Below, piece after piece: positions 1-49,663 of a DNA stretch of 64,000 nt. Position 1 is the first letter of the stretch; each line of letters starts with the position of its first letter. Source of the DNA: Holophagae bacterium (lineage in GTDB: Bacteria; Acidobacteriota; Holophagae; Acanthopleuribacterales; Acanthopleuribacteraceae); assembly GCA_029263455.1 (NCBI GenBank), contig JAJCXM010000007.1, positions 62,001 to 126,000 on the forward strand. Reading direction: 5' to 3'. Below the pieces are notes generated by a model. The model saw only the letters and a program-made list of their open reading frames with translations, made no database searches and was not told the origin of the DNA. The translations under genes and the position numbers were made by a program.

Positions 1-3000
1 CCGTCGCCGAAGTCCCATGCATAGCTGGCGATAGTGGCGTCGCAACCGGTTTGTACCTGAGCCGTAAAGGAAACCGTTTGGTTGAATTGCGCCGGGTTGG
101 GGGTCGCGTCGATGGTGATCAGCGGATCAGCAACAGAGATCCCGTAAACGCCGGCTAGGTAGTTCTGTTCGATCTCGCTGGCAGTCAGTGCGCGATCGAA
201 GACGGCCACCATGTGGTAGTCGCCAATAAACGATCGTTCTTGGGGGTTAACCTCGTTGGCCAATGCAAACGCATAGGTCGGGTCCCAGTTGGAAATATTA
301 GACCCGATCGATTCGGTACCACTCAGTGCACTGTCCACGTAGAGTTTGGTAACGCCGCTGGAGTCCCAGGTGAAAACCACATGAGCAAGCTCTGTGGTGG
401 CCAATGATCCAGTCGTGGTCGTAGAGGGATTGTTTCCGTTGATACCTGTTTGGGTAGTGCGGAACCGTACGTCCCATTCGGAGGCCTTTTGGCCCAGGGT
501 GAAGTTGCGTTGGTTGGGCGTGTCAGAAAGCGTGACCACGCGTGCCGGACTTGATGGACCTTGAGTGGTGTTTTCCGGCTGAATCCAAGCTTCAATAGTG
601 ATGGCCTGGCTGGCCTGGACTGCATTGTTGAATTTTGATCCCGAAATAGGGCCCAGGATGGTGTCGTCGATGATCGAGAGTCCGCCGCAACTGAGCCATA
701 CAGTATGGCTGAGGTCTTGTACACGTAAATCTTGCGGGCTGGATCCGCCAACAAGGTCAAAGACATCGTCGCCTTGCCCTTCGCGGAAGGCGTAAAGGCT
801 CAAGACACCTTCGTTGACGCGGTGAACTTGGCCGGGCTCTACCACCACGATTAAGAGGGAGCGCGTGTCGGTTGCTGCACCGTCATCGGTGACAGTGAGT
901 TGAACCTCGTAAATGCCGGGCTCGATGTAATTGTGGGTGACCGACGAACCGGAATCGGACGAACCATCGCCGAACAACCATTCGTAGCTGGCAATGGTAC
1001 CGTCAAGATCACGAGACCCGATTGAGTCGAATTCTACTAGCAGAGGTGCTTCACCAAACATTACATCGGACTGGGCACGAGCGATGGGGGGACGATTACA
1101 GTCTGGGTTGGATCCCTGACCGGGCAGACCGGCAAGGTAATTCTGCTGAATTTCTGATGGCAAAAGGGCGCGATCGTAGGCTGCAATTAGGTATATTTCT
1201 CCCAGCCACGGCCTTGCGCCGCCAATTTCGTTGGCCAAGGCAAATACGAAAGTCGGGTCCCAATTAGAAAGATCTCCATCGACCGTGTTTTGGATGGCCG
1301 TGTCGCCATTGATACTAATGGTTGCAACACCTTCGGCGGTGCGGGTGTAGACGACGTGGGTCAGCTCACCGACGGCAGCAGAGCTGCTGGTTTGCGTGAC
1401 TACGTTTGTGCCGTTAATGCCGTTGGTGGTGGTTCGAAGCCGAACCACGAACTCGGCGCCCTCTTGACCTAGGGTGACATTGCGATTGGAGGTCCCGTCC
1501 GATAGGGTGACCACTCGTGCTGGTCCTGTTTGGTTGATGTCGGCCGTCTGGAGCCATGCTTCAATGGTCAGCGCATTACTCGTATTAATGCCATTGAAGA
1601 GCTTCTCCGTGGAGCCTGTGCTTTGCGCGATGGTGGCTGCATCAAAGGAAAGCCCACCACACTCCAACCAAGATATTTTAGCGGTGTCCTCAATGGTCAG
1701 GTCCAGGCTGGGTGCGACGCCTGAAACGTCAGTCACCTGGTTCCCAGAGCTGGCGTCGAGGTGATATTCAACCAGGAGACCGGCAAAAACACGAGCACCT
1801 TCTTCATAGACAGTGAGGTTTTCTTGGTAGGACGCCTGGTTACCGCCGTCATCGGTGACGGTCAAAGTGATGGTGTAGGTTCCAGGTTCAGTAAAGACGT
1901 GAGACACACTGGTGCCCTGACCGATTTGACTGTCGCCGAAGTCCCAGTCGTAAATGGCAATCGTGCCATCGCAGTCACTCGACGATGAGGCGTCGAAGTC
2001 GACGGTTACCGGAGCGGTGGGTCCTGATGGGTTCATCTCAAATTGGGCTATCGGTAAGCCGTTACATGGATTCGCCAACTCGATAATCTCTGACATGTCC
2101 AAAGCGCGGTCGTAAATGCGGATATCATCGATGGTGCCGTCGAATGGGCGCGATCCCGCGCCTGTAGGTTGATTGCCTATGGCTACTCCGAGACCGTTTC
2201 GCTCGTCGATGTCACCCGACTTAGCAGCAACGCCTACTTCGGTGCCATCCTGATAGATCCGTATGTTGCTGCCGTCGTATACCATAGCGGCGTGGATCCA
2301 TCGATTCGGCAGCAAGAAATCTGAGTCACCGACAACCGTAGTGGTATTGCCTTGAGTACGTAACCGAGCTCTCAGGCGTATGGCGCTTCCAGAGGAAACG
2401 GTGGAGATCATCCAGTCGTGGTCGTTGCTGGACGAACCCAGTGCGCGACTGATGAGACGCGCATCATTGGTGTCAAAATCATCGGCGTTGAACCAGAGCG
2501 AGATCGTCATCGCATCGCCGCTCACACCTGGTCCGCTCATGCTGACTCGATCATTGCTTCCGTCGAACTCGAGGGCGCCGCCGAATAGTCCGTTCGTCCA
2601 AGACGCACCGTCAACAAACCCATCAAAGGTGCCTAACACATCAGATGCCGTGTTACCGGACCCATCGTCGAAGGGCCAATGGGATATGGGTGAACCGTCT
2701 GAGACCGCGATGGATTGGCTGGTTGTGGCAGTGTTGCCCTGATTATCGGTGATGGTCAGAACGATGTCGAAGGTGCCGGCCACTGAATATGTGTGACTGG
2801 AGTTCAAACCCTGTGCCGTGACCCCGTCGCCGAAGTCCCAATCGAACAAGCTGATCGTTCCGTCGCAATCGCTGGAATCGCTGGCGTCAAGATCCACGGT
2901 GACGGGAACGATTTCGCTAGACAGATTCATAGAAAACGCAGCACTAGGGAGACCATTGCAAGGGTTAGCCAAGTCGGCGATTTCAGTGATCCCGAGGGCG

Positions 3001-5444
3001 CGGTCGTAGATGCGAACTTCGTCGATCAAGCCGTCAAAGGGGCGTGAACCCGCACCGTTAGGCTGGTTACCAAACGCCACACTTAGTCCACTACCTTCAT
3101 CAATCTCACCGGTAAGGGTTGTTGAACCAACTTCACTACCATTCTGATAGATGCGCAGGGTATTGCCGTCGTAGACCCAAGCAGCATGGGTCCATTCGCC
3201 TGTGGAGAGTACGCCACTAGAACCGACGACGGTAGTGGTCGTTCCGTTAACTCGCAAGCGCGCTCGCAAACGGGTCTCGCCGTTGGAAGAAACGGTTGAC
3301 AGCATCCAGTCATGGTCATTTGCGTTTGTGCCGGAGGCGCGGCTGATCAGCCTTGCGTCTGCGACCCCGAAATCATCGGCATTGAACCATGCGGATAACG
3401 TCATCTGCTCGCCGGTCACTCCGGGTCCTGGTAACGAGACACGGTTATTCACGCCATCGAACTCAAGGGCTGACCCAAATAATCCGGGTGCCCAACTTGC
3501 TCCTTCTAAGGTGCCGTTGTTGGGGCCAGTCGAATCCGTGGCCACGGTGCCCGAGCCATCGTCCAATGCCCAATGTGCAAGTGGCGATCCGTCACTTAAC
3601 TCGACGCCTTGAGTTGTGGTGTCGGTATTACCGACATCGTCGGTAACGGTGAGCGTAATGGCATAGCTGCCAGGACTGTTGTAATCATGGCTGACGGAAA
3701 CGCCTTGTGCGGATTGACCATCGCCAAAGTCCCAATCGTAGCTACTAATGACACCATCACAGTCACTGGACTCGGTGGCGTCGAGGTTAACGGTGACCGG
3801 CACGACCAGACTTGAAGCGTCCAACGTGAATAACGCAACGGGCAGTCCGTTGCAAGGATCGGCAAGCTCTCCGAGTTCGGAAGCTGAGAGTGCACGGTCA
3901 TAAATACGGACGTCATCGATGATGCCGTCAAATGGTCGGCTACCTGCACCTGCCGGTTGATTGCCAATAGCCACTAGCAGCCCAGCGCGCTCATCGATCG
4001 CACCAGATAGGGCCGTAGAACCCACTTCAATGCCATTTAGGAACAGGCGCAGTTGCGTACCGTCATAGGTACTTGCAGTGTGGGTCCATGTATCTGACTG
4101 TAGGGCTCCGGACGCCGCGACCAGCGTGGTGGTGGACCCATTCACTCGTAGTCGAACTCTAAGGCGGCTTTCACCACCGGACGAAACGCTGGAGATCATC
4201 CAGTCATGGTCATTGGCGTTGGAGCCAGAGGCGCGACTGATCATGCGGGCATCGGCGGTACCAAAATCGTCCGCTTTGAACCAGAGTGACAAGGTGAGTG
4301 CATCACCAGACAGACCTGGACCTGACATGGTTATGCGGTCATTGCTGCCATCGAATTCCAGCGCAGCGCCGAACAGTCCGGCGGTCCATGATGCTCCGTC
4401 AATAGCTCCGTGATGGGAACCTTGCGAATCGCTAGCGGTAGCGCCAGCCCCTTCGTCGAGTGGCCAATGGGAGATCGGTGAGCCGTCGGCTGTCTCAATG
4501 GTCTGAAGTGAGGTGGCTGTGTTCCCGTTGTTATCGGTCACGGTAAGTGTCAGAGTGTACGAGCCTGGGTTGGTATAGGTGTGGCTTGTGGTCATGCCTG
4601 AACCGGTTTCGCCGTCACCGAAATCCCAGTCGTAGGCCGTGATGGTGCCGTCGCAGTCGGAGGATATGGAGGCATCCAGACTGATCACGACGGGCACCAC
4701 CAGGTCGGAAGGGTCGATGGTGAAGGCGGCAACAGGCTCGCCGTTACAGGGATCTGCCAATTCTGCCAATTCGGCGACGTTCAAGTGACGGTCGTAAATG
4801 CGTACGTCGTCCAGCTCACCGTCGAAGGGTCGGGAACCTGCGCCATCGGGCTGGTTGCCCAATGCCACGCTCAAACCACTGCGCTCATCGAGATCGCCGG
4901 ATTTGGAGGTCGAGCCCACTTCGATGCCGTCTTGATAGAGGCGCATTTGTGAGCCGTCATAGACTAATGCAGCGTGTGTCCAAGTATCAGTGGAGAGAGA
5001 TCCTCCGTCACCGACAAGCGTTGTGGTTGACCCGTTGGTTCGAAGTCTGGCACGGAGCCGGTACTGACCACCCGAGGACACGGTTGAAATCATCCAGTCG
5101 TGATCGCCCGCAGACGTGCCCTGAGCTCGACTAATCAGACGCGCATCACCCACGTCGAAATCATCGGCCTTGAACCAGCAAGCGAAGGTTGCCTCGCTCC
5201 CGGACAAGCCTGGTCCGGGCATGGCCACGCGGTCGTCGTTGCCGTCGAAGTCAAGGGCACCGCCGGAAACGCCGGTCGTCCAAGTAGCACCATCAATGGC
5301 ACCGTCATAGGTACCGACTATGTCGCTGGCAACTGTTCCGGTACCCTCGTCTAGTGTCCAGTGGGAAATGGGTCCCTGTGACCAACCCAAAATAGCAATC
5401 TGCGTTAATGAAAGGAGCGCGAGCGATTTGGTGAGTTTGATCAT
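1..5444 (-). CDS. Secreted LamG/PKD tandem-repeat protein (3' end outside window)
   Basis: The frame is open from an ATG at 5444 to the left edge, giving about 1,814 visible residues and no stop. An AAGGAG ribosome site lies 5 bases upstream of the ATG. A short hydrophobic signal sequence is followed by LamG/concanavalin-like jellyroll domains alternating with PKD domains. Six PKD cores of the W-D-F-G-D-G type sit near residues 275, 574, 873, 1170, 1491 (variant W-L-F-G-D-G) and 1813. The first four LamG copies share one sequence type; the two later ones (around bases 1700-1100 and 700-140) are a different LamG type. LamG and PKD domains usually bind glycans or proteins outside the cell, so a surface or secreted adhesive role is inferred. 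Only 14 bases separate it from the giant gene upstream, so co-transcription is likely. Any C-terminal anchoring or sorting domain lies outside the window. Confidence 0.9.
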   Translation of the reverse strand, partial: MIKLTKSLALLSLTQIAILGWSQGPISHWTLDEGTGTVASDIVGTYDGAIDGATWTTGVSGGALDFDGNDDRVAMPGPGLSGSEATFACWFKADDFDVGDARLISRAQGTSAGDHDWMISTVSSGGQYRLRARLRTNGSTTTLVGDGGSLSTDTWTHAALVYDGSQMRLYQDGIEVGSTSKSGDLDERSGLSVALGNQPDGAGSRPFDGELDDVRIYDRHLNVAELAELADPCNGEPVAAFTIDPSDLVVPVVISLDASISSDCDGTITAYDWDFGDGETGSGMTTSHTYTNPGSYTLTLTVTDNNGNTATSLQTIETADGSPISHWPLDEGAGATASDSQGSHHGAIDGASWTAGLFGAALEFDGSNDRITMSGPGLSGDALTLSLWFKADDFGTADARMISRASGSNANDHDWMISSVSSGGESRLRVRLRVNGSTTTLVAASGALQSDTWTHTASTYDGTQLRLFLNGIEVGSTALSGAIDERAGLLVAIGNQPAGAGSRPFDGIIDDVRIYDRALSASELGELADPCNGLPVALFTLDASSLVVPVTVNLDATESSDCDGVISSYDWDFGDGQSAQGVSVSHDYNSPGSYAITLTVTDDVGNTDTTTQGVELSDGSPLAHWALDDGSGTVATDSTGPNNGTLEGASWAPGLFGSALEFDGVNNRVSLPGPGVTGEQMTLSAWFNADDFGVADARLISRASGTNANDHDWMLSTVSSNGETRLRARLRVNGTTTTVVGSSGVLSTGEWTHAAWVYDGNTLRIYQNGSEVGSTTLTGEIDEGSGLSVAFGNQPNGAGSRPFDGLIDEVRIYDRALGITEIADLANPCNGLPSAAFSMNLSSEIVPVTVDLDASDSSDCDGTISLFDWDFGDGVTAQGLNSSHTYSVAGTFDIVLTITDNQGNTATTSQSIAVSDGSPISHWPFDDGSGNTASDVLGTFDGFVDGASWTNGLFGGALEFDGSNDRVSMSGPGVSGDAMTISLWFNADDFDTNDARLISRALGSSSNDHDWMISTVSSGSAIRLRARLRTQGNTTTVVGDSDFLLPNRWIHAAMVYDGSNIRIYQDGTEVGVAAKSGDIDERNGLGVAIGNQPTGAGSRPFDGTIDDIRIYDRALDMSEIIELANPCNGLPIAQFEMNPSGPTAPVTVDFDASSSSDCDGTIAIYDWDFGDSQIGQGTSVSHVFTEPGTYTITLTVTDDGGNQASYQENLTVYEEGARVFAGLLVEYHLDASSGNQVTDVSGVAPSLDLTIEDTAKISWLECGGLSFDAATIAQSTGSTEKLFNGINTSNALTIEAWLQTADINQTGPARVVTLSDGTSNRNVTLGQEGAEFVVRLRTTTNGINGTNVVTQTSSSAAVGELTHVVYTRTAEGVATISINGDTAIQNTVDGDLSNWDPTFVFALANEIGGARPWLGEIYLIAAYDRALLPSEIQQNYLAGLPGQGSNPDCNRPPIARAQSDVMFGEAPLLVEFDSIGSRDLDGTIASYEWLFGDGSSDSGSSVTHNYIEPGIYEVQLTVTDDGAATDTRSLLIVVVEPGQVHRVNEGVLSLYAFREGQGDDVFDLVGGSSPQDLRVQDLSHTVWLSCGGLSIIDDTILGPISGSKFNNAVQASQAITIEAWIQPENTTQGPSSPARVVTLSDTPNQRNFTLGQKASEWDVRFRTTQTGINGNNPSTTTTGSLATTELAHVVFTWDSSGVTKLYVDSALSGTESIGSNISNWDPTYAFALANEVNPQERSFIGDYHMVAVFDRALTASEIEQNYLAGVYGISVADPLITIDATPNPAQFNQTVSFTAQVQTGCDATIASYAWDFGD
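3..5390 (-). repeat. In-gene tandem LamG-PKD repeat units
   Basis: The PKD core motif recurs on the minus strand at about 4613, 3720, 2823, 1931, 967 and 3. This gives periods of about 893, 897, 892, 964 and 964 bases. Each period codes for one LamG plus one PKD domain. Copies are visibly diverged at the base level (for example the segments around 2405, 3300, 4195 and 5085), so this is an old duplication series and not a recent perfect repeat. The step from about 895 to 964 bases coincides with a change of LamG type. Confidence 0.85.
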
Positions 5445-5458
5445 GATTGACTCCTTGT

Positions 5459-8400
5459 TCATGGCAGTTGCCAGTTCTGGGCTGCATCGCGCCATTCTTG
5501 TGGAAGCTCCAGCCAGAATGGATCGGTCAGATTGGGGAATGCGGTTTTCCAGTCTTGGAATTCCTGGTTAAACTGGGTCGCGCTAGTATTGATGGGGCCA
5601 ACCATCGCCGGGAAGACCAAGTCCCATTCGTTCTGCATTTCGAAAGGAAGTGTGAACACCATGTGCATATTGAAGGTCCCTTCGAAGTTGTTTCCCTCGA
5701 CCGGGTTGGTAAGCGTCGGCTCGACAGCGGCACCACTAAGCCCCGTCAGCATGCCAAGGTGAAAATCGGTGGTGGCCATGGACTGAGTCGGATCATAGGT
5801 GGTGCCGAATTGGCCGCTGAAAGAGAGCGGGATTGAGAGTTCCGTGCCGCCCAAACGCCCACTAAAATCGATCAGATGGGTGCGGAAGGCTAATTTGTCG
5901 TCGGTTGAACTGCTGTGTGTGTCGACGAACCCTATCCATCCGAGCGGATTGAGGAAGAACCGATTGGGTATGAAGTAGTAGGGACTGCCAAAACAGAAGC
6001 GCGGGAAATTCTCTTCGTAGCCGCCGCCATAGTCCACTCGATCGGTGATGAATCCGGGACCGAGTCCTATGCTGTGCTCCGAATCCCAAACATAGGGTTC
6101 ATAGGCTTGAAATGGCAGATCGATTCCATTGTCCACATGGTCCTGAGTGATTTGCACCTCATAGACGCGAGCAATGGCTTGGCTCGTGCCAAGATCTTTT
6201 CCGGATTTGTAGGCATTGCCGATGTCGGCTTCATAGGTCACAAAGATCCACGCGCGATTCCCGACCGGGACATCGAACAAGTAGAACGAGTCGATGTCGC
6301 GTCGCTTGGCAGTCTGCGACTTGTAGTAGGGATCATAATCCGAAGCCCCGGTAGCCTCGGAGATGTAGGTTAGATCCCAATCATATGTCCAGAGCTGGTA
6401 ACCAAAATAGGTATCAGTCAGCTGCATGATCCAATTGGTGTCCAGTCGGACCTCAATATCTGCCGTTTGCAATTCATTTCCCGGTAACCAATCCAAGATT
6501 TCCTGCTCGCCGACACTTCCTGCGGTCCCATAGCGAGTTGGGAAACGGCTGGCATAGGCGGCCCAGAGCCGGCCCGGACTTAGATAGAACGGAATTTCGT
6601 TGTCGATAATCTCGGTGTCATCCCAGAGTTGGTAGGTATCGACGTGCGCCTGGCCGTCGTGTTCTTTTTCGCCACCTATATCGGAGACCATATTAGCAAT
6701 CCAGGACAAGGCTTCGGAATTGCCAACGTTAAGGTCAACGGTGGTTGCTGTGACCTGTTGGGGTGCGATTAGTTTGAAATGTGGGCCTAGATTGGCTGTG
6801 CCTGTGTCAACTAATGCAGAAGTGGTTAGAGTCCCGGGCTCAACCCAGATATCGTCGTAACGGATGGAGTAGTCGAAATCGTAGTTGTAGGGGTAACCAT
6901 TGACCAGGATGAAGTGGTGATGGTTTTCGTAGTCAGGTGTCACGCCGACTGTCTCTGAAAATGACTCTGAGTAGTACTTAAAGTCGGGCAGAGGATTACC
7001 CAGGTCATCCAGCACAAGTAGATCTGCCACGGGGAAGGGTAGGGTTACCGGGAAGGAGCCGTCGACCGCTTGGGCCAAACCCTGGGCAATAACGGCTTCG
7101 GACGTGGGAGCGGCTAGCCGGTAACGCAGGGCGACCGATCCGTCGGTCGGACAGCGCAAATTGTAGTAGAGCGACCCGCCACTGGCGGCGATGTAGGTGT
7201 AGTAGGAGGGTACCGCAGCGGGGTATTCCGCACCCGTGACTTGGTCTACGTAAAGTAGTTCCTGGAGATAGGTAGCCACGTCGTTACGGTAGGGAATGTA
7301 CGACGTGCCATCAGCGGCGTAGGTTCTTAGTGCGGTCGATGGCCATGTCGCTGGGCCCACCGTGTTGCTGGCGTTACAGTCGAGGAATAGTGTCTGGCTG
7401 AAGATTGGGTTGGAGAAGCCGGGTAAGTAGGCTTCCACCAAGGTGTGCAGACCGGCGATGGGTGCCAACAGGATGTAGCGGTCGTAGCTGGAACTATCAG
7501 TATGAACCGAGTAGATGTAGGTCGCTTGGCCGTCTATGAACCACTCCAGTTCTTTTCCACGCAGGTCATAGCGAGCGTGGATGTAGACAATGTCGTTCAT
7601 GCAGATGTTTAAGTACGAACGCAGGTATTCCCGTTGACCAACGGAAAGATCGCCGACCAAGTACCAGTTGGTCCCGTCCATGCTGAACTGAATCTCCCAT
7701 ACATCGCCCACGCGAATACCGCTAAACGCAACATCGCCGTTTTGGTCGGTGATCTCGGTCAGTTCGCGACCGTCGGTGTGGTTGAGGCGGATATAGCGAC
7801 CTGCCGTATTGGGCTCTCCGGTAATCAGTTTGTAAATCAAGGTAGTGGGTGCTGTGTGAAAGCCGCCATTGATGACAATGCTGCCTGATTGGCTGTCACC
7901 GTCGATTCCGTTGCGGGTCGAGACACGGTCGATGTCGAAGGTCGACAGCGCTTCGTCGTAGGTGAGCGCTACGCGCCCGCCACCGCCGCCGTTAGTACCC
8001 GAGTCTGTGACCCAATCGGCGTAGTTACCGTCGCCTCCGTGGGCTGATATGTGGCCCGTCCCAAGAATGCGTTCGGCGTGGATGTTGACGCTGCCGCCGG
8101 ATCCGGACGCATCGCTACTCCGTCCGTGCTGGCCATTTGCTTCAATGGCGCCATTAAGTGTCAGTGATCCAGTGATGTCGAGTATAACGACGCCACCGCC
8201 TGTACCGCCGCCCTGAGACGAAATGGTGTCTCCTCCTGACCCGAGATCTCGCGGGTCATAAGGATCGCCATAGGTCGGGCCGGCAAAGGTACCACCCGAT
8301 CCCCGACCACCGTAACCGGCGGCATAGCCGTTAGTGCTGCGACCGGGTCCAGTGCCTTTGACGTAGCCGCGTTCCGAGGCGTCAAACCGTGAACTATGAT

Positions 8401-24713: not shown

Positions 24714-26864
24714 ATGATTGTTTATGCATTTGCGTGCATGTTCCTATTCCAACAGGTGCCATCCACTGAAGAGACCATCCTTGTGGACGGCCGGCTTGAT
24801 GAGCCTATTTGGGCAACGGCCAAACAAATATCTGTCACCCACGAATGGTTTCCTGGCGATAACCTGCCTGCTCCTGTGGAAACCATATGTTTGATCACCT
24901 ATAATGAACGTTTCTTGTATGTCGCTTTTCGCGCTTTTGATCCTAACCCCGCGCAGATCCGCGCTCACTTGGCAGATAGAGACGTACCTATCAGCGATGA
25001 CAATGTGGGCATACAAATCGATACGTTTAATGACCGCAGACGAGCATACCAGTTTCGAGTGAATGCGCTGGGTGTACAAATGGATGCCTTTAACGACGAC
25101 ATCACGGGCAGTGAAGATTGGTCGTGGGATGCTATCTGGGATGCGGCAGGCGCCATATGGGATTGGGGTTATTCGGTTGAAATGGCGATCCCATTCAAAC
25201 AGTTACGATTTCCCAGAGGTGAGAGCGAACTTACTTGGGGCGTGATGGCCATCCGTGATTATCCGCGTAACGTGGAACATCGTTTACGTTCTTTTGCCAA
25301 TGACCGCGATCGTGAATGCGTGGTATGTCAGTTTCCCGAGGTTGGGGGATTCCATAATATTAAACCGGGTCGCAATTTGGAAATCACGCCCACGGCCACG
25401 ACGGGTCGAACCGAGATACGCAATGAATTACCTGATGGCGGATTCCAGACGGGTGATGAAGAAACGGAATTCGGCCTCTCGGCGCGCTGGGGCATATCAC
25501 CCAACACGTCGATGCAGGGCACCCTTAATCCTGATTTTGCCCAGGTAGAGGCCGATGCCGCCCAGTTGAATGTCAACGAGCGATTTGCACTCTATTTCCC
25601 GGAAAAGCGACCCTTTTTTCAGGAAGGTTCTGAGTTTTTTGATACGCCAGTACCCGCCGTTTTCACACGATCCATTATTCAACCTCGATACGGCCTCAAA
25701 TTTACCGGTAAAGAAGGAAAACAAGCCTATGGTGTGCTTTTTGCCGAGGACCGCTTCAATCAAATTATTCGACCTGGTTATGAATCTTCGTCCACGCATT
25801 TTAGTGAGGAAAAGGCGACAACCGGTGTCGTTCGTTGGCGAACGGACCTTGGAGAGCAATCGAGCCTTGGTTTGTTGGCCACTTACCGCGACGCCGACGA
25901 CTATCACAATATGACCTATGGAGTTGACGGTTCATGGCAGGTGAGCGAAGCAGACACGATTCGTTATCAATTGATTGCATCAAGTACGGATGATGGACTT
26001 GGCATTGACACACAGAGTGGCAGTGCTAGTGATGTGTCTTACCGACATCGAAGTCGGAATTGGGTCTGGTCGGCATCCACGGAACACCGCGACCGCGGAT
26101 TCAGGGCTGATGCCGGATTCATATCTCAGGTAGATTATCGTTTTGCAAGGGCAGGAATCAGTCGTGTCTTGTGGGGTGGAAGCCAAACTTGGTTTCGCAA
26201 ACTCTGGTTCAACTTTGGGGCCGACTACACGCAGAATACGGATGGCAGTATTCAAGAGAATGGCCAGGATATTGGATTAGAGTATGAGGGCCCGATGCAG
26301 TCCTATGTGAGTGTTAATTTGGCCCCGAACCGTGAGCACTATGAGGGTGTCGACTATAAACATTTCCGGCAGAGCCTGTATGTTTCCATGCGGCCAAGTG
26401 GCGCGCTCTCGTGGGGTATGTCAATGAATAGAGGCGAAACTATTGATGTGGTCAACGCTCAATCAGCCGACTTCTTGACCCTAAACCCTTCGCTTCAATG
26501 GAGTATCGGTCGTCATGTGAGGTGGGACTTGGAGTACGTGCGCCAAAAATTCGAAGTCGATGCGGGACGCTTATTTCGTGTCCAATTGGTAGAGAGTCAT
26601 TTTTTGGTTCATCTAAATTTACGCACGCTCGTTCGCGCTATAGTTCAATACCGAGAAGTTAACCGCGATCAGGATCTTTATACAGGTGATGTAAACGCTA
26701 ACAGCCAAGACCTATTCACGCAGCTATTGTTTTCGTACAAGATCAATGCTCAAACCTTATTGTTAGCAGGCTATTCGGACAATTATGAAGGCAACGATCG
26801 CTATGATTTAACTCAAGCTCAGCGCTCTTACTATTTGAAGATCGGCTACGCTTGGATTCCTTAA
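24714..26864 (+). CDS. DUF5916 protein with N-terminal CBM9-like domain
   Basis: The 716-residue protein starts with a short signal sequence. A CBM9-like carbohydrate-binding domain (about 20-190) follows, with the typical V-D-G-R-L-D-E-P-I-W opening. A DUF5916 region, predicted to be an outer-membrane beta-barrel, runs to the C-terminus and is rich in alternating aromatic and polar strands. GGAG lies 8 bases before the ATG. Family members are common in Acidobacteriota and Bacteroidota; their substrate is unknown. It stands alone and ends before a clear terminator. Confidence 0.88.
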   Translation: MIVYAFACMFLFQQVPSTEETILVDGRLDEPIWATAKQISVTHEWFPGDNLPAPVETICLITYNERFLYVAFRAFDPNPAQIRAHLADRDVPISDDNVGIQIDTFNDRRRAYQFRVNALGVQMDAFNDDITGSEDWSWDAIWDAAGAIWDWGYSVEMAIPFKQLRFPRGESELTWGVMAIRDYPRNVEHRLRSFANDRDRECVVCQFPEVGGFHNIKPGRNLEITPTATTGRTEIRNELPDGGFQTGDEETEFGLSARWGISPNTSMQGTLNPDFAQVEADAAQLNVNERFALYFPEKRPFFQEGSEFFDTPVPAVFTRSIIQPRYGLKFTGKEGKQAYGVLFAEDRFNQIIRPGYESSSTHFSEEKATTGVVRWRTDLGEQSSLGLLATYRDADDYHNMTYGVDGSWQVSEADTIRYQLIASSTDDGLGIDTQSGSASDVSYRHRSRNWVWSASTEHRDRGFRADAGFISQVDYRFARAGISRVLWGGSQTWFRKLWFNFGADYTQNTDGSIQENGQDIGLEYEGPMQSYVSVNLAPNREHYEGVDYKHFRQSLYVSMRPSGALSWGMSMNRGETIDVVNAQSADFLTLNPSLQWSIGRHVRWDLEYVRQKFEVDAGRLFRVQLVESHFLVHLNLRTLVRAIVQYREVNRDQDLYTGDVNANSQDLFTQLLFSYKINAQTLLLAGYSDNYEGNDRYDLTQAQRSYYLKIGYAWIP

Positions 26865-43071: not shown

Positions 43072-45234
43072 CTATTCTGAATCCGGCGAATTCTGTCGGT
43101 TACGTCTACTTTTTGAGGTGCTTTTGCTTGATGTTTTGCGAGATTTCGTGGGCGTAGATGCTTTGGTTTTAGAGGTGCGAGATGGCTTGGACTTCACACT
43201 GCTTCTTTGCTTAACTGGGGCTGTGGTTCGGGTTGGCCGTTGAGCTTGCGGTCGCGAGGTTCTCGTTTGGGCCTTACGCGGAGGGGGAGAGGCTTGGCGG
43301 CTGCTTGAGCTACGTTGGACCGTGGATCTAGGTTTGCTAGTTGTTTGCGATTTAACTCTCGATTGACGGCTAGAAGAAGAGACGCGAGCACGTGGCTCGC
43401 GTCCATTGGATTGAGATAGTCGTGATGGAGCGCGATCACGGTCGCGCTCCGTTGTTTCTGTGTCAGTGGTTGTTTTGGGTGGTGCTGTGCGCTTAACGGG
43501 CTTGCGCGTCGTAGGTTTCGGCGCTGGTTTTTCCACTGTTCGTGGCGTGGGTGTAGCCGTTCTTGGCGGTGCAGTTGTTTTTGGAGGCGTGGCCTGTCGG
43601 GTTGGTTGCCGGTCCGTTGACGACCTTGTTGAATCCGTACTGCGAGGTGTGGCCGGCGACCGAGTGGTTGATCTAGGTTCCGGGGTCGTTCTCGTGTTGC
43701 GTGATGGGGTGTCAACCGTTCGCGGCTGTTTGGGATCGCTTGTACCTCGAGGCGTGATGGTTCGCGTTGTTTCCTGACGTTCACTAGGTGCTCGTTCGCT
43801 TGTGCGCGTATTAACCGTTCGTTCCGTTCTGGTTGAGGAATTGGTTCTGCTCGTTTGCGTGTCGTATCTTGAGACGGCCCGTGTGCCTGTATCTCGAGTA
43901 ACGACTGCTTGACGATTTTCTTTGCCTTCTGTTGAACGCAAGACCCGCGTACCTTCATTTCGCTGGCTCGCGTAACGGCGATTGCTTTCTACATCACGAA
44001 TGGCGGTTTGAACGGCGCGAGGTTTCTGGACGTCGCTGCGAGATACATGAATCGGGCGTGTCGTAATTTCGCGGCGACCATTCAAATGATCACGGCTTTC
44101 GCGACGAATATTGACTCGTCTATGATGCACTTCACGCACATTCACGTAGTTCCAATGGTGGTTGTAGTTATTGACGATAAGGGTGTTATGTCGGTAGTGA
44201 CGATCGTAATAAAACGGTGTTCTCCAGTATCCTAATGGGCACCAGCCGACGTAGTTGTCATAACTGTTCCAGGCGACCCATGCGGGTGAATAGAAACGAC
44301 CAGGGATCCAATACCAACCCCAACGAAGGTTCCAGCCCCAATTCCCATAATGGTGGGTGACCCATCCAAATTGGTCATAGGAAACCCATGTAAGGGAACG
44401 GTTTGCTGAAGTCCAATAGCCATTGTGATAGGGGCTCCAGCCAGTGTTCACGGACGGAACCCAGACGTGGACGTTGATATCTGATTCATAACGCCAGTCG
44501 CCACTATCGTCGAGGTCGGCCGCGTAGTAACGCAGATTCTGGTCGACGTATTTTGAGCTGGCATTGGCCGCTCGAGGTGCGCGTCCGTAGGCCCATCGTT
44601 CAAAACGATTACCTTGGAACGCGTTAAATGAGCGAACTCGACTAGGTCTGGTCATCCCCAAGATGGTTGCGTATTCGCCGGAACGCATCAAGGTGGAGCC
44701 CTCGCTACCTGACAACTCTGCCATGCCTCGATAGACCTTGAGCTTCATGTGCCTGACACGGAACTCGACGAAATAGACGCCTGGGGTGTCGAAGTAGGCG
44801 CTTCCGGCTTCCGTATCTACTCGGAATACGCGGCGACCAACATCAATTTGCGAATCGGTGATATGAAATAACACCGCTCCTTCGTACATGTTGATGACGG
44901 TTAGCGCTTCATCGTCTAGTATCTGTGATATCGCTTGAAACTCTACTCTAGAATTGCCATCGACCTGTAAAAGCGTACCGTCGATGAATTCTAATTCTGT
45001 GTAAGCACCTGTGGCTGACTCGATTTGGTCACCATAGGTAATTGGGTAATTAATAAGTGCGTCTTCCACTTCACCTTCGCGTTTGACGACCACGTTGCGG
45101 TCAACAAAGGTAAGACGTGCATAGTCTAATCCTTGCCCGTACTCTTCTAGTTCGGGCTCGTCGATGATGCGGTCCGTCTGCCACGCAAAAGCGCTCGGGA
45201 TAAATGTAAATAAGAGAATAAGGATCGTTTTCAT
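43072..45234 (-). CDS. FecR-domain/DUF6600 protein with Arg/Ser/Thr/Pro-rich tail
   Basis: 720 residues with a signal peptide ending near S-A-F-A-W and a strong AAAGGAGGG ribosome site. A FecR-like beta domain (about 40-200) is followed by a Trp/Tyr/Gly-rich DUF6600 segment (about 225-370) with W-V-S-Y-D-Q-F-G-W repeats. The last 340 or so residues are low-complexity, dominated by Arg, Ser, Thr and Pro. FecR domains often sense or bind at the envelope with a sigma factor, but none is adjacent here. The basic tail could bind polyanions such as nucleic acid or acidic glycans. The tail's skewed bases open a second 254-codon frame, which I treat as an artefact. Confidence 0.87.
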   Translation of the reverse strand: MKTILILLFTFIPSAFAWQTDRIIDEPELEEYGQGLDYARLTFVDRNVVVKREGEVEDALINYPITYGDQIESATGAYTELEFIDGTLLQVDGNSRVEFQAISQILDDEALTVINMYEGAVLFHITDSQIDVGRRVFRVDTEAGSAYFDTPGVYFVEFRVRHMKLKVYRGMAELSGSEGSTLMRSGEYATILGMTRPSRVRSFNAFQGNRFERWAYGRAPRAANASSKYVDQNLRYYAADLDDSGDWRYESDINVHVWVPSVNTGWSPYHNGYWTSANRSLTWVSYDQFGWVTHHYGNWGWNLRWGWYWIPGRFYSPAWVAWNSYDNYVGWCPLGYWRTPFYYDRHYRHNTLIVNNYNHHWNYVNVREVHHRRVNIRRESRDHLNGRREITTRPIHVSRSDVQKPRAVQTAIRDVESNRRYASQRNEGTRVLRSTEGKENRQAVVTRDTGTRAVSRYDTQTSRTNSSTRTERTVNTRTSERAPSERQETTRTITPRGTSDPKQPRTVDTPSRNTRTTPEPRSTTRSPATPRSTDSTRSSTDRQPTRQATPPKTTAPPRTATPTPRTVEKPAPKPTTRKPVKRTAPPKTTTDTETTERDRDRAPSRLSQSNGREPRARVSSSSRQSRVKSQTTSKPRSTVQRSSSSRQASPPPRKAQTRTSRPQAQRPTRTTAPVKQRSSVKSKPSRTSKTKASTPTKSRKTSSKSTSKSRRNRQNSPDSE

Positions 45235-45873: not shown

Positions 45874-45966
45874 GATCGTCAAGATAACATGAAAAATTAT
45901 GGTGGTATTGAAGCACGTCAATGTCGAGGTTGATAGAATACTCGATCTTAAGCGAGGTGCTTGTTG

Positions 45967-46791
45967 ATGTTGAAACTGGACCAAGATGGACAACCGCTTT
46001 TTGACAGTCATCGAGAAGAGGCCATCAAAGAGGCATTTTTTGACGCGGTGTGTCTCATGCGGCATTTACGGGAGCGCTGCCCATGGGATGCAAAACAGAC
46101 GCCCGAGTCGCTGAAGAGATATGTCATCGAAGAGGCCTATGAAGTGGTCGACGCCATTGATGAGCAAGATTGGCAAGAGCTGGAAAAGGAACTTGGTGAT
46201 TTTGTTTTTCAAGTGCTTTTTCAAGCTCAGATCCAGGAGGAAAAAGGTCGTTTTCAAATTGAGACGGTGATAACGGCCTTGATCGAAAAAATGGTTAGGC
46301 GACACCCACATGTATTTGCCGATCAACAGGGGATTGGCATCGACCAGATCTGGAAAAATTGGCACGACATCAAACGTCAAGAAAAAGGTGAACAAAGTTC
46401 ATTGTTCGCTGGATTCCCTAACGCGTTACCGGCTCTTCAAGCTGCCTATAAGATTGGTAAGAAGACGGAATCTGTCGCTTTCGATTGGCAAGATGCGCAT
46501 CAAGTTATGTTGAAAGTTCGCGAGGAAATGCAAGAGATGGAAGCCGAACTTGAAATCGGAAATGAAGAACACTTAAAGGAAGAAATGGGTGACTTGCTAT
46601 TTACCCTGTCACAACTGTGCCGCAAGTTGAACATCGAACCGGAAGAAACATTGCGCCAAGCTAATCAAAAATTTCTGCGCCGATTTGAAGCCATGGAATT
46701 ACTCGCCAAGCAGCGACACCTCGAATTCTCCAAGCTTGCCAGTGAAGCGAAGGAGGACTTATGGCAGGAAATAAAAAGTCAGGAACTCTAG
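45967..46791 (+). CDS. mazG: MazG nucleoside triphosphate pyrophosphohydrolase
   Basis: About 274 residues from the ATG at 45967, with GAGGT upstream; TTG codons at 45961 and 45964 are alternatives. Two MazG domains are present. The first has L-R-E-R-C-P-W-D, E-E-A-Y-E-V and E-L-G-D-F; the second has R-E-E-M-Q-E-M-E and E-E-M-G-D-L-L-F. MazG cleans up non-standard NTPs and can lower ppGpp. Full length compared with E. coli MazG. Confidence 0.95.
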   Translation: MLKLDQDGQPLFDSHREEAIKEAFFDAVCLMRHLRERCPWDAKQTPESLKRYVIEEAYEVVDAIDEQDWQELEKELGDFVFQVLFQAQIQEEKGRFQIETVITALIEKMVRRHPHVFADQQGIGIDQIWKNWHDIKRQEKGEQSSLFAGFPNALPALQAAYKIGKKTESVAFDWQDAHQVMLKVREEMQEMEAELEIGNEEHLKEEMGDLLFTLSQLCRKLNIEPEETLRQANQKFLRRFEAMELLAKQRHLEFSKLASEAKEDLWQEIKSQEL

Positions 46792-47160
46792 CCGTCTAAA
46801 GCGCTGTCGTTGGCTTTAGCAATCATTGCCAATCTCCCACTAAATGGCCGAATCAAGCCCCCATAAACAGAAGCCTCGTCAAATTCACCGTTACCAAACC
46901 ATCTGCGATTGCGAGAAACTTGAGGTCTATCGATCGGAAAACGAAGGATTTCTGTCCGGTCTATACTCCTACTTTATAAACCAGATTGAATTTTTGTCTT
47001 GTTTGAGCTATCCATAAAACGGTCTGTGGTTAGCAACGTCCTGTGGCTAATCGTAGCCTTTGCCTGCTCTGGCTTTGATGCCAATTTCTCAGCTCACCAG
47101 ATTTTGGCGCCATTGGCATTCTGATTGGGCTGCTTGTAGACAAAAGAAGGGAGCTTTCTT
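46792..47160. other. 369-base intergenic region
   Basis: No convincing gene is seen on either strand. A 7-base stem (46796-46802 with 46813-46819) right after mazG may help termination. The right end holds the AGAAGGGAG ribosome site (about 47144-47152) for the next gene. The rest looks non-coding. Confidence 0.5.
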
Positions 47161-49075
47161 GTGAATTATTTTCTTATCCTCATTTCCATTTCTTGGGCTC
47201 AAACGGATCTTGTTTTCCCGTGGATCACAAATAACGCTCAATTCCAAGGTACCATCATTGTCAACAATCTCAGTGCCGAACAGGTGGAAGTCGAACTCGT
47301 TGCGACAAGGCCAAGTGGAGACCAGCAAATCGCACATATTTCTTTGCCTGCATTTGGGCAGTATGTTGCTAAAGCGAGTCAGGTTTTTGAGCAGTTAGGT
47401 TCTGGCAGTGGCTTTTCGGTACGTCTTCGAAGCAGTAGCGATCTTATTTCGGGCGGATTTGTTAATGAAGGAACGGGTAGTGATTCAGGCTCGTCACCTG
47501 CTCAAGCCAACCCCATCCCCTTTGGCACGGCAAGCAACGACCTTATTTTTAATTTCATGCCTACCACTTCAACTAGATTCTCCGCGCCCGTAATCTACAA
47601 CGCGAGCGATGAGTCACTTCGCGTCACGGTTAGAGCTTTCCGCTCTGGATATAGAAGTAGGTCGCGTAGAACGAAACATTGAAACCCAAAGACCCTTCGC
47701 TGCGACCACGCAATCCCTGTTTCCGGGCCTCTTGGGCAATACAAGATTGGTTGCTGAGAGCGATGGTCCAATCCTCGGTACGGCGTTTAATTTCAATTCG
47801 GCCTTGGAACCATCCATGGCGGATTCCATAGTCATTGATCCGTTGATTGAGGCGGTCGCGGTACAGTCTGACGTTATGCTGGAAAATTGGCGCCAAGATT
47901 TGGCTTTCATGGTGAATGCCATGAAAACAATACATCCCAATCTCTTCCACGACATATCAGAGGAATCGTTCGACCAATCAGTGTCTGAATTGCATGCCCT
48001 CATTCCTGGTTTTGATGATTATCAGATCCTGGCGGGACTCATGCGCATTGCCGCCTTGCCCGCCATCAGGGGTCGTGAAAGTCATATGGGTCTTGATTTT
48101 AGATCCAATCCGGGTTCAATCTTCCCATGGCAGCCATACTTTTTTGAGGGCGAGCTATATTTGGTAGATGCCCATCCAGATTTTCAAGAATATGTGGGCA
48201 TGAAAATCACTCATGTCGGAGCATTTAGCATTGCCGATATTTTGATTGCCATTGATCCTCTACTTGGTCACGACAGTGAAATGAATTTAGTCGCCGTGCG
48301 TCCCTTTGCCACCGTATTTCCATATTTAATGCACGCTGTGGGAATTGTTGAGGATCCAGATCGGGTTACGTTTCGACTGGAGTCTCATGACGGGGAAACC
48401 TTGACACGTGAATTGGTGCCGTTGCCTTTTGAGGTAGGCGGTCCGTGGCTGGCTGAGTCATACGCAATGGCCAATTTCATTCTGCCCCAGGATCCATCGG
48501 TCCTTTACTTAAGAAACATCGAAGAACGTTTCTGGGACACTTACCTCGATGATTCCAAAACTCTTTATCTTCAGTACAATGCCGTTCAGGACACCACTCA
48601 ATCTGGTGAGACATTGTCCCAATTCACGACACGCCTCACGTCATTCATTGATCAATCCGCGGTTGATAGGGTTGTTGTGGACATGCGCCTTAATGGTGGC
48701 GGAAACAATACGATCTTCGAGCCGCTGATCCGTTTTGTAGAGTCCGCCGTTGATTTACTGCCAAATCACGTTTTTGTTGTTATCGGACGGGCGAATCTTT
48801 CGGCTGCCGGCAATCTTGCAGCGGAGTTACAACGTAGGACCAATGCTTTGTTGATCGGCGAACCAACCGGGGGTAGCGCCAACCAATATGGCGATGCGCA
48901 AGTACAACAATTACCCAATAGTGGATATGAATTGTATGTACCCACTATCTATCATCAATTCTCTGATCCCGATGACCCAAATTTGTCGGTACTCCCGGAC
49001 ATAGGGGTCAGCCTAACTTTTGATGACTACATGAAGCGTCGTGATCCTGTTATGGCAGCGATTTTAGCCAAGTGA
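47161..49075 (+). pseudogene. Secreted S41-type peptidase, frameshifted near 47641
   Basis: Reading begins at a GTG with AGAAGGGAG upstream and gives a signal peptide (L-I-S-I-S-W-A-Q). A beta-rich repeat domain then starts V-F-P-W-I-T-N-N, and a second copy runs through V-I-Y-N-A-S-D-E-S. That frame stops at 47682. A second frame, open to 49075, continues the second repeat (P-F-A-A-T-T-Q-S-L-F-P-G) and then an S41 peptidase-like domain with V-D-M-R-L-N-G-G-G and G-R-A-N-L-S-A-A-G-N, where the Ser is the likely nucleophile. Dropping one C at 47640-47641 joins them smoothly (V-R-A-F-A-L-D-I-E-V). So it is one gene of about 637 codons with a +1 insertion: a recent mutation, an assembly error or, less likely, programmed shifting. 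Confidence 0.82.
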
Positions 49076-49189
49076 GCTTTTTTGCAGAAGCTACCAATGG
49101 TGCATTGAATACACGTTTAGTGGAAGCTGGTGACCAGCAATTGCCTGAGATCAGTTTGTGCAAGTTTACTAGTTTGTTTATTGAAGAAC

Positions 49190-49663
49190 TTATGGGTCGG
49201 AGCGTTGCCAATCGCCACTGCGCCCGCCGCTCTTTGTTAAGAGCTTAATGCCTTCGATCTGCATGTCCTTACTCTGCGATTTGGTCATGTCATAAAGCGT
49301 TAATAAGGCGACTGAAACGGCTGTCAATGCCTCCATTTCAACGCCTGTGCGTCCATGGCATCTACTTTCAGCACGGACGATGACACGATCCGCCAAGGCT
49401 TCAAACGTCACTTGCACTGAGTCAATCACAATCCCGTGGCACAACGGAATAAGCTCGGCTGTCTTCTTGGCTGCCATGATGCCAGCTAGTCGTGCAACTT
49501 CGTAGGCATTACCCTTGGGCAGAGACGTTAACGCGTCGATAACGGAAGCTGACATGGTGATCCAGCCTTCTGCCGATGCCGCACGTTGACTCTCGACCTT
49601 TTCGCCGATATCGACCATGCGTGCAGAGCCTTGCTCATCGAAATGGCTGAATGCGGCCGTCAT
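49190..49663 (-). CDS. moaC: Cyclic pyranopterin monophosphate synthase
   Basis: 157 residues with the full MoaC pattern: A-R-M-V-D-I-G, K-G-N-A-Y-E-V-A-R-L-A, L-I-P-L-C-H-G and G-V-E-M-E-A-L-T-A-V. It completes the first step of molybdenum cofactor synthesis after MoaA, which is not in the window. Last gene of the tsaD-lepA operon, 8 bases after yhbY. Confidence 0.96.
   Translation of the reverse strand: MTAAFSHFDEQGSARMVDIGEKVESQRAASAEGWITMSASVIDALTSLPKGNAYEVARLAGIMAAKKTAELIPLCHGIVIDSVQVTFEALADRVIVRAESRCHGRTGVEMEALTAVSVALLTLYDMTKSQSKDMQIEGIKLLTKSGGRSGDWQRSDP

Follow-up and report, generated by a model that had tools for sequence, protein, structure and literature searches.

Family S41 comprises the C-terminal processing, tricorn and CPAF-like peptidases. 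In frameshifted bacterial pseudogenes, a single break interrupts an otherwise open coding sequence. We analysed a stretch of 64,000 nucleotides (the window) from the draft genome of a bacterium of the family Acanthopleuribacteraceae, in which an earlier note had pointed to a secreted S41 peptidase gene split by a frameshift. The locus likewise has a single break and nothing special in addition, and it looks like an ordinary frame-broken gene that calls for no new mechanism. We hold with high confidence that 47161-49075 represents one gene, the frame of which is broken in the sequence as given, be it by mutation or by an error of assembly.

Organization of the two reading frames

Two overlapping frames, herein referred to as ORF1 and ORF2, were identified on the forward strand (Table 1). 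With respect to ORF1, ORF2 is read in the +1 frame; the two share 74 bases, and ORF2 stays open through to its listed end. The signal peptide of ORF1 was recognized by reading of the sequence, not by a predictor. On both sides the pair is flanked by genes that were named from a reading of their translations, a mazG-like gene at 45961-46791 and a moaC-like gene at 49190-49663 on the minus strand.

Table 1. Features of the frame-broken gene, in window coordinates
Feature	Position	Strand	Basis
Shine-Dalgarno-like GGGAG before ORF1	47149-47153	+	sequence; duplex energy of the 17 upstream bases, -7.6 kcal/mol
ORF1 (173 aa): begins at GTG; brief signal-like N-terminus, then the first beta-sandwich, the beginning of the second, a short out-of-frame tail and a stop	47161-47682	+	
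Module positions 2 to about 155 of 216, ORF1 frame	47197-47655	+	module HMM
Likeliest interval for the frame switch, at a strand-to-strand turn in the second sandwich	47641-47658	+	two-frame profile score, codon usage, strands E143-151/E154-163 of the model
ORF2 (488 aa) as mechanically listed; its ATG lacks a ribosome site, and its N-terminus is not signal-like	47609-49075	+	ORF list, duplex energies
Module positions 155-215, ORF2 frame	47657-47839	+	module HMM
S41 peptidase region, about ORF2 residues 90-486	47876-49066	+	PF03572, relatives across the phylum, conserved residues

One module divided between two frames

A profile HMM of 216 positions was constructed from 26 copies of the N-terminal module, all cut from unbroken genes. 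The ORF1 frame matched positions 2-165 of this profile (2-158 in a wider scan) with an i-E-value of 7.2e-58, and the ORF2 frame matched positions 155-215 with 6e-18, both values referring to a search of three sequences. The two frames thus match, far above chance, neighbouring portions of a single domain, itself intact elsewhere, which is the pattern of a pseudogene formed by frameshift and agrees with the split proposed before. Within the same genome, 25 places were detected with the ORF1 query and 13 with the ORF2 query, the gene itself being counted in each. The second half of the module was found to continue in the same frame in 23 fetched frames carrying the first half, several of these loci repeating one gene.

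The module HMM was then applied to C7, 640 kb of C8 and nine further loci of this genome, to five contigs of a same-genus genome, G001 (its C8 in part, and its C33 up to the last 2 kb), and to nine loci of other relatives, a set that includes part of the 25 ORF1-matching places. The other full copies in these stretches numbered 36, all of them unbroken within a single frame: 20 came from this genome and 16 from relatives, the latter including two of identical sequence. Many of the 36 had also served as seeds of the HMM. The scan also gave four weak partial matches within long frames. Among the stretches scanned, a split pair was seen at this gene only; the alternative form, separate genes sharing a conserved break, was sought in the comparison of orthologues and was not seen. 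A further profile search, in which up to 10 candidates were scored per genome, listed 20 matches for this genome and G001, and of these only the present gene stopped short (position 162 of 219).

Structure and distribution of the module

The module of a relative (L180), modelled from a 5-sequence alignment, was predicted to form two beta-sandwiches (pLDDT 86.8, pTM 0.83), to which the two repeat domains described in the earlier note correspond. About half of the model aligned with the beta-sandwich of the Anabaena sensory rhodopsin transducer and TM1070 (2ii7, 1nc7) over 89-114 columns, with target TM-scores of 0.60-0.75. Unlike these proteins, the module is a tandem pair, and the identity is as low as 10-18%, with Foldseek E-values between 0.003 and 0.034. 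As judged from the model, the likeness is a resemblance of predicted fold only, and membership in that family is not claimed. The best Foldseek E-value for the model was given by a transglutaminase (5e-4), yet with a TM-score below 0.2.

ORF1 matched no family above cut-off in Pfam or in NCBIfam, and its search by sequence against solved structures returned just four chance-level matches (E 0.54-0.94). Two of the six module proteins scanned showed a weak match over the module to DUF5719 (PF18986), with 19.9 and 17.8 bits; the better of these stays below the cut-off of 26.2 for membership, and ORF1 itself gave no match to DUF5719 at E 1. DUF5719 was not mentioned in the literature found by our search. 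In the passages found in PMC8841776, PMC13083261 and PMC13043013, nothing on this gene was seen; the term S41 occurs four times in PMC8841776.

Genomes of Acanthopleuribacteraceae carry numerous copies of the two-sandwich module of about 216 positions (47197-47839 here, and loci L004-L036), fused to a variety of cargoes. Those scoring above cut-off were NHL/SMP-30, erythromycin esterase and DUF11 domains; those just below it were cytochrome-like and PHB-esterase-like. At E 1e-10, matches were detected in 10 of 297 genomes of the phylum, strong ones only in this genome and G001. As a guess, the module may serve at the surface or in export.

The peptidase part

ORF2 scored 36.5 bits against Peptidase_S41 (PF03572), for which the cut-off is 24. 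Ser398 (codon 48800) and His159 (codon 48083) were kept in 15 of 15 aligned sequences, and Glu418 (codon 48860) in 14 of the 15, ORF2 being included in each count. We take Ser398 to be the catalytic serine and His159 and Glu418 to be its partners, as in the CPAF/tricorn type. By the profile score and these residues, both shared with the family, ORF2 belongs to family S41, as a putative peptidase. Around the conserved His, the 14 aligned relatives carry a D-x-H-T/S motif, whereas ORF2 (48041-48100) reads E-S-H-M after an insertion of four residues. No match of ORF2 to solved structures was obtained by sequence at E 0.01, and the NCBIfam prc and CPAF models scored ORF2 far below cut-off. Of 32 near-invariant S41 positions, ORF2 deviates at 7. 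The corresponding figure is 0-5 for 13 of the 14 other sequences, and one distant sequence deviates at 13 of 36. These deviations weakly suggest that constraint on the ORF2 sequence is relaxed; they may instead reflect divergence.

S41 matches at E 1e-15 were found in 29 of 396 genomes of the phylum, the own genome included, with up to 4 candidates scored in each genome. All matches listed in the 28 other genomes start at ORF2 residue 78 or later, that is, past the module and not at the break. An orthologue with the same build of module plus S41 domain was not found among the relatives searched, so that the comparison rests on the relatives of each half, and the intact form of this very gene was not seen. 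In G001, nine ORF2 matches (E 0.001) were all located at the module end and none at the peptidase part. A contig scan with ORF2, outside of which the own genome may lie, yielded 32 pattern matches and no confirmed relative.

Position of the frame change

For homology, each column was scored in both frames by a scheme of our own (15 rows, 26 columns). The switch was placed best at codons 47650-47656 (28.9, 26.1 and 27.3 bits), while 47641 gave 20.6 bits. Codon usage peaked at 47632 and varied within about 3.3 bits over 47602-47653. The earlier note had put the change at 47640-47641; this site is about 8 bits worse by homology, whereas codon usage favours it over 47650 by 1.6 bits, and it is a possible position of the change. 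The reading in that note is otherwise supported, the exact position being the one point on which it is probably off. Alignment with the relative's module model locates the break in the second sandwich, in the hairpin that joins strand 143-151 to strand 154-163. Module matches in ORF2 extend to about residues 77-86. As the interruption falls within the second sandwich and well ahead of the border between module and peptidase, gene fission at the domain border was rejected: the module runs past the break, and the S41 domain begins further on.

Translation starts and export

The duplex energy at the GTG of ORF1 (Table 1) indicates a good Shine-Dalgarno sequence. At the ATG of ORF2 the value was +0.6 kcal/mol, with no Shine-Dalgarno sequence, and the other in-frame starts up to 47990 reached -3.8 kcal/mol at best. 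Better values, -5.3 to -6.1 kcal/mol, were obtained at 48041, 48086 and 48161, but these starts lie within the peptidase domain. As a yardstick, the 10% and 5% quantiles for random 17-mers were -5.6 and -6.3. At the starts of four nearby genes the energies were -9.6, -4.9, -4.2 and +0.2; since one of them also lacks a Shine-Dalgarno sequence, its absence alone is no proof. A hydrophobic stretch was absent from the N-terminus of ORF2 by reading. Given the weak starts and the absence of this stretch, the peptidase, as written, would be neither well started nor exported, in line with what had been noted before for the second part.

Origin of the break

The frequency of frame errors was estimated by comparing 792 kb of this genome with 1.38 Mb of G001, taken from contigs other than C1, C3-C7 and C10. 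A first pass gave raw split pairs in both genomes, 65 in this one and 39 in G001; three of the 65 rows represent this gene, and many others, with gaps of a multiple of 3, look like shadow frames. One case was checked by hand: the raw split at about 25500-26420 of the window lies on the strand opposite an intact frame of 724 aa, for which a counterpart with 66% identity exists. The remainder were removed by rule, retaining best-scoring non-overlapping matches with identity of at least 35% and two syntenic neighbours. The 272 matches that passed included 216 syntenic ones (205 with at least 100 aa aligned), and 56 were dropped, among them the two halves of this gene, the best partners of which are two different genes. 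No other frame split was detected in either genome among the 216 syntenic orthologues (238,404 aligned bases, mean identity 67%). As a control, one-base deletions were planted at random on this genome's side only, and 44 of 60 were reported (73% sensitivity); the 16 that escaped detection had been planted at fractions 0.03-0.19 or 0.73-1.0 along the aligned stretch. By our own calculation, with this sensitivity allowed for, the rate of frame errors in conserved genes is below about 1.7 per 100 kb (95%), which corresponds to at most about 0.03 expected errors in this gene. Ordinary pseudogene frequencies are of the same order. Conserved genes are under selection against real breaks, and the synteny test therefore speaks to the error rate only.

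With no other split among these orthologues at the given sensitivity, a real mutation is the somewhat likelier origin, and we consider it the probable one; the deviations of ORF2 at near-invariant S41 positions point weakly the same way. The other origin of a single broken gene, a one-base slip in the consensus while the gene of the organism is intact, is possible and rated lower. The open ORF2 frame with its conserved His, Ser and Glu speaks for such a slip, as does the draft state of the genome (40 contigs, 95.07% complete); against it stand the clean orthologue comparison and the composition of the site, where no single-base run longer than 3 was found at 47580-47700.

Explanations other than a broken gene would need the two frames to be used as they are. 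The ORF2 ATG falls inside ORF1, as it would if a small secreted module protein were followed by a separate peptidase gene starting within it, and the neighbouring gene without a Shine-Dalgarno sequence shows that such starts occur nearby. The border of these two genes, however, would cut the hairpin of one sandwich and is found in no relative examined, and neither a Shine-Dalgarno sequence at 47609 nor a signal-like start of ORF2 is present; two real genes are thus very improbable, and an internal start at 47609 was rejected, the ribosome site being absent. The overlap of the frames makes recoding possible in principle, whereby programmed frameshifting or transcript slippage would supply full-length protein at a low rate. 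Neither the classic -1 heptamer, XXX(AAA or TTT)Z, at 47601-47690 nor the longer base runs were found, inspection by eye recognized no known +1 recoding motif at the break, and all 36 other full copies lack the break. Programmed frameshifting was rejected for lack of a -1 motif and of conservation in relatives, and recoding of either kind is highly unlikely. We likewise give very little weight to a gene switched between two products by recoding or reversible change of length, with the bare secreted module made by default and the module-peptidase made when the frame is restored.

Genomic neighbourhood

Two synteny blocks, the mazG-side one (C26) and the lepA-moaC one (C2), are on different contigs in G001; in this genome they meet at 46792-49190, where the gene is located. 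Relative to tsaD, G001 has the lepA-yhbY-moaC block in inverted orientation. Elsewhere in the window, an open frame of 8,324 residues (C7:42596-67567) enters from the left edge at 1-5567 on the minus strand; its best match in the G001 stretches compared is a 2,086-residue frame, over 114 columns. At 43072-45234, also on the minus strand, lies a 720-aa protein that by reading looks exported, with a long C-terminal half rich in Ser, Thr, Arg and Pro.

Implications

Under the preferred reading of one broken gene, the intact protein would be secreted and would consist of a signal peptide, the two-sandwich module and a C-terminal S41 serine peptidase. A net change of one base inside the second sandwich puts the gene out of frame. 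Translation from the good ribosome site would then yield a stub of 173 residues that comprises the first sandwich and a fragment of the second but lacks the peptidase; we infer both export of this stub and loss of function of the gene. The peptidase part would be left without a start or an export signal and most likely is not made. The annotation should accordingly be corrected, the two ORFs being one disrupted gene, and the peptidase of ORF2 should be left out when functional secreted enzymes of this bacterium are tallied. The side result, a module with many copies and varied cargoes, may matter more than the broken gene.
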